Source of the DNA: Bacteroidota bacterium
GTDB taxonomy: Bacteria > Bacteroidota > Bacteroidia > Flavobacteriales > Flavobacteriaceae
Reading direction: 5' to 3'
Length of the DNA stretch: 34,697 bases
NCBI GenBank assembly: GCA_947460615.1
Contig: CANHHG010000016.1
Location: 1-34,697 of the forward strand
Shown here: piece by piece, positions 11,045-34,697 of the stretch
How the letters are laid out: each line of letters begins with the position of its first letter
Position numbering within the stretch: position 1 is the stretch's first letter
The notes under the pieces: model-generated
What the model was told of the DNA's origin: nothing
What the model saw: only the letters and a program-made list of their open reading frames with translations
The model's database searches: none
Translations under genes and position numbers: made by a program

Positions 11045-11962
11045 TTATAGTTGATTGTTTATATGTTCCACGATATCATTTTTGTTTACATCAAAATCAA
11101 ACCATTTGGTGTCAGAGTTTCTTTTAAACCATGTTATTTGTCTTTTTGCAAAACGGCGGGTATTTTTTTTTATTTCCTCAATCGCAAAATCTAACGTTGT
11201 TTCATTATTAAAATAACTAAACAACTCTTTGTAGCCAACTGTTTGAAGTGCGTTTAAATCTCTTTGAGAATATGTATTTTTGGCTTCTTCTAATAGGCCC
11301 TCTTTCATCATAGTATCTACACGTTGGTTGATTCTTTCATAGATTACTTCTCTTTCTGCCTCTAATCCGATTAAAATAGGTTTAAAACTTCTTTGATTTT
11401 TATTTTGATTAATAAAGGAAGAATAGGGTTTTCCGGTTCCAATGCAAACTTCTACAAACCGCATCATTCTTTGAGGATTTAATAGTGTTTGAGGGTTATT
11501 TTGAGATAGTTCAGTATAATAATTAGGGTCAAGTTTTTTTAAGCTTTCTATTAAAAATTTAATCCCATTTAATTCGTATTTTAATTTAATATTTTCTCTG
11601 ATGGTTTTTTCTATTTCAGGAATAGCATCGAATCCTTTTAAAATCGCGTCAACGTATAATCCAGAACCTCCAACAAGAATTACAAAGTCATTGTTAGTAT
11701 AAAGTCCTTCAAGTTTTAAAATGGCTTCTTTTTCAAAGTCGCCTACGTTATAAACTTCAAATATTGATTTGTTATGAATAAAGTGGTGTTTTGCAGATGA
11801 AAGTTCTAATTGGTTTGGCACTGCTGTTCCAATAGTCATTTCTTTAAAAAACTGTCGGCTATCACAGGAAATAATTTCACAATTGAAATGTTGCGCTAAA
11901 GCAATACTTAAGGAAGTTTTTCCTATTGCGGTTGGTCCAACAATGGTGATTAAATATTTCAT
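11045..11962 (-). CDS. miaA: tRNA dimethylallyltransferase
   Basis: IVGPTAIGKTSLSIALAQHFNCEIISCDSRQFFKEMTIGTA; FAKRQITWFKRN. Confidence 0.97.
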   Translation of the reverse strand: MKYLITIVGPTAIGKTSLSIALAQHFNCEIISCDSRQFFKEMTIGTAVPNQLELSSAKHHFIHNKSIFEVYNVGDFEKEAILKLEGLYTNNDFVILVGGSGLYVDAILKGFDAIPEIEKTIRENIKLKYELNGIKFLIESLKKLDPNYYTELSQNNPQTLLNPQRMMRFVEVCIGTGKPYSSFINQNKNQRSFKPILIGLEAEREVIYERINQRVDTMMKEGLLEEAKNTYSQRDLNALQTVGYKELFSYFNNETTLDFAIEEIKKNTRRFAKRQITWFKRNSDTKWFDFDVNKNDIVEHINNQL

Positions 11963-20234: not shown

Positions 20235-21383
20235 TTATTTTTTAAGATATTCTTGAGGTGATACTCCGGTTATTGATAGGAAACTTTTAAAGAAGGAACT
20301 ATAGGAGGTAAATCCAACTTCAGACGACAAAGATTCCATCGTATTTTTTTTGAGATATCCCTCTTGTATTAATTGAATTGTCTTTTGAATGCGTATTATT
20401 TTTTTAAATTCAGAGAATTTTATTTTTGAATGGTACTTAAAAAGATACAATACATGACTTTTTGGAATATTTAGTTCGTTAGCTAAATTAGTGGTGTTGA
20501 ATTTTTCAGTGAAGAAGGCATTTGAATTTACTGCTAAATTTTCAATAGTCATTATATAATTTTCAATATTAATTTCCATTTTTTCTTTCAAAATAGAATC
20601 TTGAATATTGCTTATTATAGGATTCTTGGTAATCCATATATTCTTATAAATAATAGTATTTTTTTTAAATTCTTTTATTTTTTTTTGAAATACATGATAT
20701 CCATAAATTAATTCAGGGGATTGAAGCATTTTTAAATAAAGTCCTATACATATTAAAGCACTGAACCAAAGAAATTGATTTTTATTAAAGTAGTCAATCC
20801 CCAATAAGTTAAGTGTAAAATTAAAGAAGAATCGTAAAAACATTAATAGGAATAACACATACAAGAATAGCGTCCATTGTTTGAATAATTTATTTTTTTG
20901 GTCTACATGTAGAAGGTCGTTTTTTCTGGACCAAACTTTATTTTTCAATAACTTATAGCTAGCCAGTGCATATAAAATACTTGTAATTATTATAAATACT
21001 ATTCCAATAAATACCACCTTATCAAAGATTTGTTTTGTTAAATGGCTATTAAACCAAATGAAGTAAAGAAAAAGCGTTGGAAAAACAAAGTGGAGCAAAT
21101 TCCTTTTGATAAAGCAGGGAGGGTTATTGACTAAATTATTAAAATACAAGTAAACAAGTGGCCATGCATATACATTAACGGCTACATCAAATTGATTTTG
21201 AAGATTCTGTAAGTTTGGAAAAACAGTTATAGTTCCATGTACAATAAATCTAGAGCTAGTCAATAATACAAGTATAAGAAAATAGGCATTAATGTTATGA
21301 TTTCTTTTAAATCTAAAAACCATTAACAAAAACACAATAAGTCCTAGCAAACCTGAGAATAAGTAAATATTTTTTTCCAACAT
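20235..21383 (-). CDS. AraC-family transcriptional regulator with N-terminal multi-TM domain
   Basis: C-terminal TTNLANELNIPKSHVLYLFKYHSKIKFSEFKKIIRIQKTIQLIQEGYLKKNTMESLSSEVGFTSYSSFFKSFLSITGVSPQEYLKK; hydrophobic N-terminal segments. Confidence 0.92.
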   Translation of the reverse strand: MLEKNIYLFSGLLGLIVFLLMVFRFKRNHNINAYFLILVLLTSSRFIVHGTITVFPNLQNLQNQFDVAVNVYAWPLVYLYFNNLVNNPPCFIKRNLLHFVFPTLFLYFIWFNSHLTKQIFDKVVFIGIVFIIITSILYALASYKLLKNKVWSRKNDLLHVDQKNKLFKQWTLFLYVLFLLMFLRFFFNFTLNLLGIDYFNKNQFLWFSALICIGLYLKMLQSPELIYGYHVFQKKIKEFKKNTIIYKNIWITKNPIISNIQDSILKEKMEINIENYIMTIENLAVNSNAFFTEKFNTTNLANELNIPKSHVLYLFKYHSKIKFSEFKKIIRIQKTIQLIQEGYLKKNTMESLSSEVGFTSYSSFFKSFLSITGVSPQEYLKK

Positions 21384-31554: not shown

Positions 31555-32445
31555 ATGATTACAATAAAAAAATATGCAGCAATAGACATTGGTTCAAATG
31601 CAATGCGACTTTTGGTAGCTAATATTATTGAAGAAGATGGTAAAGAGACGCATTTTAGTAAAAGTGCATTAGTGCGTGTCCCTATTCGTTTAGGACAAGA
31701 TGCCTTTACAGTTGGTGAAATTTCTGAAGAAAATATTGATAGAATGGTAGATGCTATGAAAGCATTTAAACTATTAATGAAAGTTCATAAAGTTGAAAAA
31801 TACATGGCCTGTGCTACATCTGCAATGCGAGAAGCTTATAATGGTCGCGAGGTAATTGATATAATTAAGAAAAAAGCAGATATAGATATCAATATTATAG
31901 ATGGGAAAACGGAGGCAGCAATAATTGCATCCACGGATTTACATTATTTATTAAAAACAGAGAAAACGTATTTGTATGTTGATGTTGGTGGGGGAAGTAC
32001 AGAATTTTCTTTGTTTTCAAATGGTAATATGATTGCTTCAAAATCATTTAAAGCAGGAACTGTGAGGCTTTTAAATGAGGTTGTTCCTGAAATAGTATGG
32101 CACGAAATTGAAAAATGGATTAAAACAAATACAGAGGTATTTGATGAGGTAACTCTAATAGGATCTGGTGGGAACATTAATAAGCTGTTTAAAATGTCGG
32201 GAAAAATGCAGGACAAACCATTGTCTTACATGTATGTAAATTCTCAATTTGCATTTTTAAATTCACTTACCTACGAACAAAGGATTACAGAATTAGGATT
32301 AAATGCTGATAGAGCAGATGTTATTGTTTTAGCTACAAAAATTTATCTTAATGCAATGAAATGGAGTGGTGCAAGAAGTATTTACGTTCCTAAAATTGGA
32401 CTTTCAGATGGTATAGTTAAAGCGCTATACTACGGAAAAATCTAA
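31555..32445 (+). CDS. ppx: Ppx/GppA exopolyphosphatase family protein
   Basis: AAIDIGSNAMRLLVANI; YLYVDVGGGSTEFSLFSNG; LIGSGGNINKLFKM. Confidence 0.93.
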   Translation: MITIKKYAAIDIGSNAMRLLVANIIEEDGKETHFSKSALVRVPIRLGQDAFTVGEISEENIDRMVDAMKAFKLLMKVHKVEKYMACATSAMREAYNGREVIDIIKKKADIDINIIDGKTEAAIIASTDLHYLLKTEKTYLYVDVGGGSTEFSLFSNGNMIASKSFKAGTVRLLNEVVPEIVWHEIEKWIKTNTEVFDEVTLIGSGGNINKLFKMSGKMQDKPLSYMYVNSQFAFLNSLTYEQRITELGLNADRADVIVLATKIYLNAMKWSGARSIYVPKIGLSDGIVKALYYGKI

Positions 32446-34265
32446 ATGTCTAACTCAAAAGTTTTTCTTAGTAGGTCTAAATTTTGATTAAGCTCTGTTA
32501 ATCGATTGTACTTTTCCTGTGGTGTAAATGCCATTTTAGTCGTAACACTTTCATTTACAATTACTTCAATTGTAATATTGTGATTGTGTAAATGCCCTTT
32601 TAAATAGCCTAACAAACCGATTTTTTCCGATTCAAAATCTATTTTAGAACCTTGATTGGGCAATTCCAAAGTAATAGTAGTTCCATTTAATTTAGGATCA
32701 TTAATAAGTAATAATGATTCCATTATTTTATAGCCTTTATCACCTAATCGTTGTGCGTATTTATTCCAATACAACAACATATCAGTTTCATTAATATCTT
32801 CTGTAGGTAAATGAACTTCTTCCTTTACAATAGATTTTCCGGCTTCTAATAGTTCCTTTTTCGCCTTTATACTTGACAATGAAAATGCAGAAACTTTGGG
32901 TTCCGATGCGAGATCTATCGAAGTGGTTGTTTCTATTTTTTCAATTGATTCTTCAGGATCATTATTTTCAATTGGAGCAATTTCAGTTTCACTCTTTTCT
33001 GAGGTGGTCTTTTCAAATTCACTTTGTATTATAACACTATTATCTGTGTCAGAAATGCTATTACTAGTGACTACTTCAGAACTAATATCACTTGGTACTT
33101 CAATTGCAACAATTGTTTTTACATCAACTGTTTTGTCAGTAATTGAATAATTGGAAATCCTAAAATGTGTTGGGGGAATTATATAAGATTCAGTCTTTTT
33201 TTTTTCTCCATCAAAAGTGATAGAGGCCAATTGCATTAAGCAAAGTTCAACCAGTAAACGCTGGTTTTGGCTAATTTTGTATTTTAAGTCACAATCATTG
33301 GCAATTTGAATTCCTTCTAATAAAAATTCTTGTGAAGTTTTTTGGGATTGAATTTCGTATAATTTTTGTGCTTGTTCACCTACTTCTAATAGTGAAATAG
33401 TTGTGGGTGTTTTACAAACTAATAAATCTCTAAAATGGGAAGCTAATCCAGCAATAAAATGATGGCCATCAAATCCTTTTGAAAGAATTTCATTGTATGC
33501 CATTAATAATTCTGGAATTTTATTTTCTATAATTAAATCGGTAATATTGATATAAGTTTCATAGTCAAGAACGTTTAAATTTTCCGTAACCGCTTGACGA
33601 GTAAGATTATTCCCGCAAAATGAAACTACTCGATCAAAAATTGATAAAGCATCTCGCATGGCACCATCCGCTTTTTGCGCAATAATGTGTAATGCATCGT
33701 CTTCAAATTTTACCCCTTGACTTTCAGCGACTTCAGCTAAATGTTCTTTAGCATCCTTAACGGTAATTCTTTTGAAATCAAAAATCTGGCAACGAGATAA
33801 AATTGTAGGTATTATTTTATGTTTTTCTGTGGTAGCCAATATAAAAATAGCATGTTTTGGTGGCTCTTCCAGTGTTTTCAAAAATGCGTTAAAAGCAGCA
33901 GAGGACAGCATGTGAACCTCGTCAATAATATAAACCTTGTATTTTCCTGTTTGTGGAGGGATTCTAACTTGGTCTATTAAATTTCTTATATCATCAACAG
34001 AATTATTAGAAGCCGCATCCAATTCAAATACATTAAATGCAAAATCTTCTAAAGGATCATCATAACCGGGTTGGTTGATTTTTCTTGCTAATATCCGGGC
34101 ACAAGTTGTTTTCCCAACTCCTCTAGGTCCAGTAAATAAAAGTGCTGACGCCAAATGATTGGTTTCTATGGCGTTTAATAAAGTATTGGTAATGGCTTTT
34201 TGACCTACAACATCTTTAAATGTTTGAGGACGATATTTCCGAGCCGATACTACAAATTCTTCCAT
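32442..34265 (-). CDS. dnaX: DNA polymerase III subunit gamma/tau
   Basis: ARKYRPQTFKDVVGQKAITNTL; LFTGPRGVGKTTCARILAR; VYIIDEVHMLSSAAFNAFLKTLEEPP; LATTEKHKIIPTILSRCQIFDFKRI. Confidence 0.97.
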   Translation of the reverse strand: MEEFVVSARKYRPQTFKDVVGQKAITNTLLNAIETNHLASALLFTGPRGVGKTTCARILARKINQPGYDDPLEDFAFNVFELDAASNNSVDDIRNLIDQVRIPPQTGKYKVYIIDEVHMLSSAAFNAFLKTLEEPPKHAIFILATTEKHKIIPTILSRCQIFDFKRITVKDAKEHLAEVAESQGVKFEDDALHIIAQKADGAMRDALSIFDRVVSFCGNNLTRQAVTENLNVLDYETYINITDLIIENKIPELLMAYNEILSKGFDGHHFIAGLASHFRDLLVCKTPTTISLLEVGEQAQKLYEIQSQKTSQEFLLEGIQIANDCDLKYKISQNQRLLVELCLMQLASITFDGEKKKTESYIIPPTHFRISNYSITDKTVDVKTIVAIEVPSDISSEVVTSNSISDTDNSVIIQSEFEKTTSEKSETEIAPIENNDPEESIEKIETTTSIDLASEPKVSAFSLSSIKAKKELLEAGKSIVKEEVHLPTEDINETDMLLYWNKYAQRLGDKGYKIMESLLLINDPKLNGTTITLELPNQGSKIDFESEKIGLLGYLKGHLHNHNITIEVIVNESVTTKMAFTPQEKYNRLTELNQNLDLLRKTFELDI

Positions 34266-34401: not shown

Positions 34402-34407
34402 CACCGC

Positions 34408-34697
34408 AGACCGCCTTATCGCCACGCTTAGGTGTGGAGGAAAGTCCGGACACCAAAGAGAAGCATAGCGGGTAACGCCCGTCATTTCGAGTAATCGAAA
34501 GAGGACAAGTGCAACAGAAAGCAGGTACAGGTAATGCTGTAGTGAAACCAGGTAAACTCTATGCGGTGAAATTTCAAGTATATCAATAGTTAAGGGCTTC
34601 TCGTCCGTTGTTGAAGGGTAGAAAGATGGAGCTCGCGAGTAATTTCGAGCCTAGATAAATGATAAGGCCACGCAAAACGTGGACAGAATCCGGCTTA
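34408..34697 (+). ncRNA. rnpB: RNase P RNA (bacterial type A), 3' end beyond the window
   Basis: GGAGGAAAGTCCGGACACC near the 5' end, GTGAAACCAGGTAAACTC in the middle, GGACAGAATCCGGCTTA at the 3' end. 5' end is approximate. Confidence 0.95.

Follow-up and report, generated by a model that had tools for sequence, protein, structure and literature searches.

How might one dnaX gene provide both the gamma and the tau form of its product in Flavobacteriaceae? The question is raised by a stretch of 34,697 nucleotides (nt) from a Flavobacteriaceae genome (assembly GCA_947460615.1, contig CANHHG010000016.1, positions 1 to 34,697), which we call the window as a whole. Its dnaX gene carries a run of ten A residues (A10) behind the part that encodes domains I-III. 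From the comparison of related sequences we consider it likely that A10 is a programmed switch which gives gamma and tau from the one gene via slippage of RNA polymerase, with an RNA hairpin directly upstream probably promoting the slippage. The features needed to follow the argument are these (aa, amino acids; dN/dS, ratio of nonsynonymous to synonymous substitution rates):

32442-34265, minus strand: dnaX, DNA polymerase III gamma/tau; tau of 607 aa in the unshifted frame (NF011531, domain matches)
33216-34265, minus strand: part common to gamma and tau, domains I-III, residues 1-350 (domain matches)
33206-33225, minus strand: 8-bp RNA hairpin ending directly at A10 (folding and conservation tests)
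33196-33205, minus strand: A10, the putative slippery run (sequence and relatives)
33190-33192, minus strand: TGA met after a gain of one nt (equal to the -1 frame); predicted gamma of 358 aa ending EKKKD
33179-33181, minus strand: TAA met after a loss of one nt (or a gain of two); predicted gamma of 361 aa ending EKKRLNLI
32895-33194, minus strand: tau-only linker, opening with a conserved ..YIIPP motif just past the run
32445-32894, minus strand: tau-only conserved C-terminal region, residues 458-607 (dN/dS)

The 607-aa frame is recognised as DnaX by the NCBIfam model NF011531 (699 bits with a cut-off of 685, E 6e-210) and shows an AAA domain, the lid and a gamma3 domain III reaching residue 348. 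With clamp-loader ATPase domains I-III and a tau-only extension, it is a dnaX gamma/tau gene. Behind domain III the minus-strand codons are GAT GGA GAA AAA AAA AAG ACT GAA TCT, and one added A turns them into E354-KKK-D358-stop. Re-reading of the minus strand bore out every coordinate of an earlier, sequence-only reading of this DNA, which had placed A10 at 33205-33196, a TGA of the -1 frame at 33192-33190 (about 358 aa ending KKKD versus the 607-aa tau) and a TAA of the +1 frame at 33181-33179.

Constant run length and changing polarity

We compared dnaX from about 100 Flavobacterium genomes (the genus), 90 Flavobacteriaceae entries with one per genus (the family), 67 members of the wider phylum and 80 named Bacteroidota records. 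Run counts in the genus refer to the 98 Flavobacterium genomes having the site; polarity, i.e., which product is the unshifted one, was scorable in 97.

The run is uninterrupted in all 98 Flavobacterium genomes, being A10 in 95 and A11 in three. Interruption by synonymous AAG codons, which the sequence-only reading had named as the finding to look for against a switch, was searched for in these 98 genomes and occurs in none. Across the family the run is exactly A10 in 73 of 90 entries and has at least nine As in 89, and in the wider phylum sample at least A9 is present in 47 of 67, several Bacteroidaceae-like loci being without a run (L068, L082, L088, L095). Both off-frames stop within five codons in 99% of the genus and 85% of the family, versus 13-14% at control positions. 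A conserved homopolymer of at least nine at the gamma/tau boundary, with nearby stops in both shifted frames, is the arrangement of a slippage dnaX of the Thermus thermophilus type.

One could argue that such a run is merely what an E-K-K-K peptide looks like under A-rich codon usage, without any switch, and 87% of the lysine codons in Flavobacterium dnaX genes are indeed AAA. Even so, given EKKK, the codons GAA AAA AAA AAG are expected with a chance of about 0.08 per gene, yet they are found in 91 of the 98 genomes, with the remaining ones varying in the last codon only; relatedness lowers the number of independent cases behind this count. As controls we followed the A9 runs of miaA and of a TauE/SafE gene, both in the window; most relatives have them in shortened or interrupted form, in the case of miaA through synonymous AAG codons inside a conserved I-K-K-N motif. 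Furthermore, most of the genus could not make tau without a shift, although the C-terminal region of tau is conserved. A by-product is thus very improbable; chance A-richness was rejected on the codon-usage and other-gene controls.

While the length of the run is constant, its polarity is not. The unshifted frame is gamma in 91 of the 97 scorable Flavobacterium genomes, ending within about eight codons of the start of the run, and tau lies one inserted base away; only in the window genome and five others (6/97) is tau unshifted. The gamma/tau switch suggested by the sequence-only reading is supported, with the addition, not visible from the window, that tau is the shifted product in most Flavobacterium. 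In the family, 70 entries have tau in frame, 14 need one additional nt and four need one less; lineages also differ in the codon phase of the run, but not in its length.

A genus tree computed from the N-terminal part common to both products places the tau-in-frame genomes at scattered points among the gamma-in-frame ones, with nine changes when outgroups are included. A family tree, weakly supported, has 14 switches of polarity. Compared with its near relative L009, the window has a single-base difference just past the run (A10-GACTGAATC versus A10-GTTGAATC) and none within it. As judged from these alignments and trees, the polarity flip arose several times in the genus; that of the window came from an indel which spared the run and left its length at ten. 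Polarity thus drifts, whereas the run keeps its length. L008 carries A11 followed by the sequence that follows A10 in the split genes; it is possibly an intermediate between the polarities, and a sequencing error could mimic the same picture.

Errors of sequencing or assembly in homopolymers could also be blamed for the polarity differences as a whole, and some oddities do go with an altered run length (A9 in L042; A11 in L008, L177 and L292). Against this, the run is exactly A10 in the window, L005, L006 and L007, and the difference from L009 lies outside it. In addition, the window and L005 are separate genomes which are sisters with 99% support and share the tau-in-frame state. We regard error as an extremely improbable explanation.

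Do genomes with tau out of frame really produce it? The dnaX open reading frame is split in 91 Flavobacterium genomes, which could be taken as two separately translated proteins or as pseudogenes, with the fused frame of the window as the exception. In most gamma-in-frame genomes, however, the first tau-frame ATG does not come until about 100 codons past the run, and the II(P) motif straight past the run is kept in the tau frame (II within 16 aa in 92/97). Moreover, both off-frames stop at once, and dN/dS is low: between genomes having the tau C-terminal region out of frame it is 0.078 for this region, which indicates purifying selection, and it is 0.033 for the shared gamma/tau part between Flavobacterium members. 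Because the C-terminal region is conserved and the first ATG is so far away, tau in the split genes requires a change of frame. Independent initiation of the C-terminal part was rejected on the position of this ATG. Selection thus argues that tau is really made in these genomes, and two proteins or pseudogenes seem hardly credible.

Some further observations concern individual loci and runs. L299 is the sole Flavobacteriaceae genus without an A run of at least nine (within about 260 nt past domain III), and an automatic check finds no long frame after the run site; its dnaX may have lost the tau extension or may be misassembled. L042 (Flavobacterium sp. YO12) has A9 in place of A10, so that tau would need a loss of one base or a gain of two; this is either a true variant or a mistake in sequencing the homopolymer. 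In the window, with a G+C content of 31%, the dnaX A10 is the sole A or T run of at least ten. A pattern search of the 2.11-Mb genome returned only 13 separate A/T runs of this size, which speaks against a chance origin of the dnaX run; five of them lie inside open reading frames of at least 90 aa on the A strand, and among those five is another A10, L353 (G000 contig C96, 2784-2793), in a 382-aa frame reading ..VLKKKKSNK... The A9 of miaA (11045-11962, minus strand) lies on the sense strand at 11163-11171 with off-frames that stop within 12-16 codons; since it is not conserved in relatives, it is probably no recoding site. The gene for an AraC-type helix-turn-helix regulator (20235-21383, minus strand) has a sense-strand A9 and A8 a few codons apart (20659-20686), and the off-frames of the A9 stop within seven codons. 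Beside dnaX, on the opposite strand, starts an RNase P RNA (RF00010, class A; 34403-34697, plus strand) which is cut by the contig end.

The hairpin and the choice between polymerase and ribosome

Directly upstream of the run the transcript can form the hairpin CUCUAUCA-cuuu-UGAUGGAG (33225-33206), with eight pairs and no spacer to A10, a feature which the sequence-only reading had missed. Folded together with the run, the hairpin of the window has -9.3 kcal/mol and a z-score (z) of -2.46. It is found in the same place in relatives: its end is separated from the run by 0-2 nt in 96 of 98 genomes of the genus and 82 of 88 of the family, with a mean z of -2.45 and -1.90, respectively, where control windows give -0.30 and -0.09. 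Compared with synonymous recodings of the same peptide, z is -2.40 in the genus and -1.84 in the family, with controls at about -0.2, and in 75% of the family genera the hairpin ranks among the top 5% of all positions in its gene. For genus and family alike, pairing is also higher than in any of 500 column shuffles; as covariation is modest and shuffles ignore relatedness, we consider the synonymous-codon test, and not covariation, the stronger support. The family as a whole thus has a stable RNA hairpin adjoining the slippery motif on its 5' side, a feature which is weak outside the family. Loci from some other orders (L069, L057, L099, L066, L111) have a hairpin that is unrelated in sequence and touches the run or stands at most 3 nt from it.

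How would such a site work? RNA polymerase would slip at the moment when A10 makes up the RNA:DNA hybrid, so that the A run of the mRNA becomes longer or shorter. Of the three frames, one would continue to tau and the other two would stop within a few codons to give gamma, which would then be made and used alongside tau. The hairpin, formed by the nascent RNA directly upstream of the run, would probably stimulate the slippage. In the window genome the templated length, and changes by 3 nt, would lead to tau and other lengths to gamma; in most Flavobacterium it would be the reverse. The RNA:DNA hybrid has been described as 9-10 bp long (PMC5009743). In the insertion sequence (IS) of Roseiflexus treated in the same source, a nascent-RNA stem-loop 5'-adjacent to the slippery motif drives polymerase slippage. 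The dnaX site, where an A10 as long as the hybrid is bordered upstream by a hairpin, agrees with this type of model, in which the hairpin of dnaX would take the stimulating part.

Slippage of the polymerase is blind to the reading frame. The needed shift direction and the codon phase vary while the length is constant, which fits what frame-blind slippage predicts; differing shift directions are also the mark of transcriptional slippage put forward in PMC3711429.

The same products could result from programmed -1 ribosomal frameshifting of the E. coli type at A_AAA_AAG, leading to gamma in the window and to tau in most of the genus. The run ends in AAG in most of the genus, and -1 is the commonest direction among the genes which need a shift (14/18 in the family, 91/91 in the genus). 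Several other points also have to be counted against a switch that is due to the polymerase and its hairpin. The A_AAA_AAG heptamer stands in the correct phase in the window, and only tRNA-Lys(UUU), as in E. coli, was found in the 88%-complete genome, so that a ribosomal contribution is possible. Three of the four family cases which need one nt less are A11 runs, which sequencing errors could mimic. Finally, the hairpin is weak on average outside the family, with a z of -0.62 against the synonymous null and a rank in the top 5% of positions in only 21%.

The further evidence speaks against the ribosome. A heptamer would need seven As, not a constant ten. The last codon is mostly AAT or AAC in the family genera (52/80 phase-1 cases), and a heptamer ending in AAT or AAC is a poorer -1 frameshift site. 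Some lineages need the opposite direction of shift. A 40-nt test past the run found no 3' stem-loop in genus or family (mean z 0.2 to -0.4), whereas E. coli dnaX, the positive control, scored z -2.8 and -19 kcal/mol in the same test. No Shine-Dalgarno stimulator was found about 10 nt upstream either: the sole GGAG stands immediately before the run and touches it. Shine-Dalgarno stimulation is in any case unlikely in Bacteroidia, where recognition of this sequence by the ribosome is blocked (PMC9976891). Moreover, -1 frameshifting in human cells is reportedly attenuated when a hairpin lies upstream of the slippery site and next to it (PMC6321510).

Transcriptional slippage is favoured because a 3' stem-loop is lacking, a 5' hairpin is present and Bacteroidia make no use of Shine-Dalgarno sequences, and we judge ribosomal frameshifting as the source of the second product unlikely. 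Of the two precedents offered by the sequence-only reading, Thermus and E. coli, the former is thereby preferred and the latter becomes less likely.

Known systems and what the proposed switch would mean

Transcriptional slippage at A9 has been established for the dnaX gene of Thermus thermophilus (PMC1088944, PMC5009743). This gene and the one in the window both have an A homopolymer after the gamma part and close stops in both other frames, and both have tau in the unshifted frame. They differ in that the window has ten As instead of nine and most of its close relatives have the reversed polarity, and in that slippage was measured in T. thermophilus and is predicted from sequence here. A conserved hairpin abuts the run of the window on its 5' side; Thermus was not checked for one. 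Two-ORF (two open reading frame) dnaX genes predicted by GeneTack in 2013 include nine with ten As, for which transcriptional slippage was proposed (PMC3711429). There, tau requires a shift at A10 as in most Flavobacterium, and the window has the opposite polarity; Flavobacterium is unmentioned in the main text of that study.

With the E. coli -1 frameshift, the dnaX of the window shares the predicted products, the position in the gene and the A_AAA_AAG heptamer. Unlike E. coli dnaX, it has neither a 3' stem-loop nor a usable Shine-Dalgarno sequence, and it is the run length and not the heptamer that is conserved. The Roseiflexus IS is alike in having a hairpin directly 5' of a motif of about RNA:DNA-hybrid length. 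Its motif is reported as T5C5 with a one-base deletion, whereas the A10 homopolymer would permit insertions as well as deletions.

Slippage of dnaX at A9 in Thermus and the prediction of tau by slippage with ten As were thus already known (PMC1088944, PMC3711429). New, as far as the literature searched shows, are the family-wide constancy of A10 regardless of polarity, the repeated flips in one genus and the 5' hairpin; no hairpin stimulator for dnaX is reported in this literature. Going one step further, Flavobacteriaceae dnaX may contain a self-contained slippage cassette, made of a hairpin and an A run of hybrid length, which would set the gamma:tau ratio independently of the frame. To this reading we give an even chance. 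As the ratio would follow from slippage, whichever product happens to be the unshifted one, polarity could flip freely and would have done so many times.

Close relatives that have the run in common and are opposite in polarity constitute a natural experiment: should slippage bring their gamma:tau ratios close to 1:1, they are expected to show similar values. For genome annotation, the split dnaX genes of Flavobacterium are a warning, since they would be neither pseudogenes nor assembly errors. If the proposed switch is true, a large bacterial family would use polymerase slippage as a routine and conserved element in the expression of its DNA replicase.
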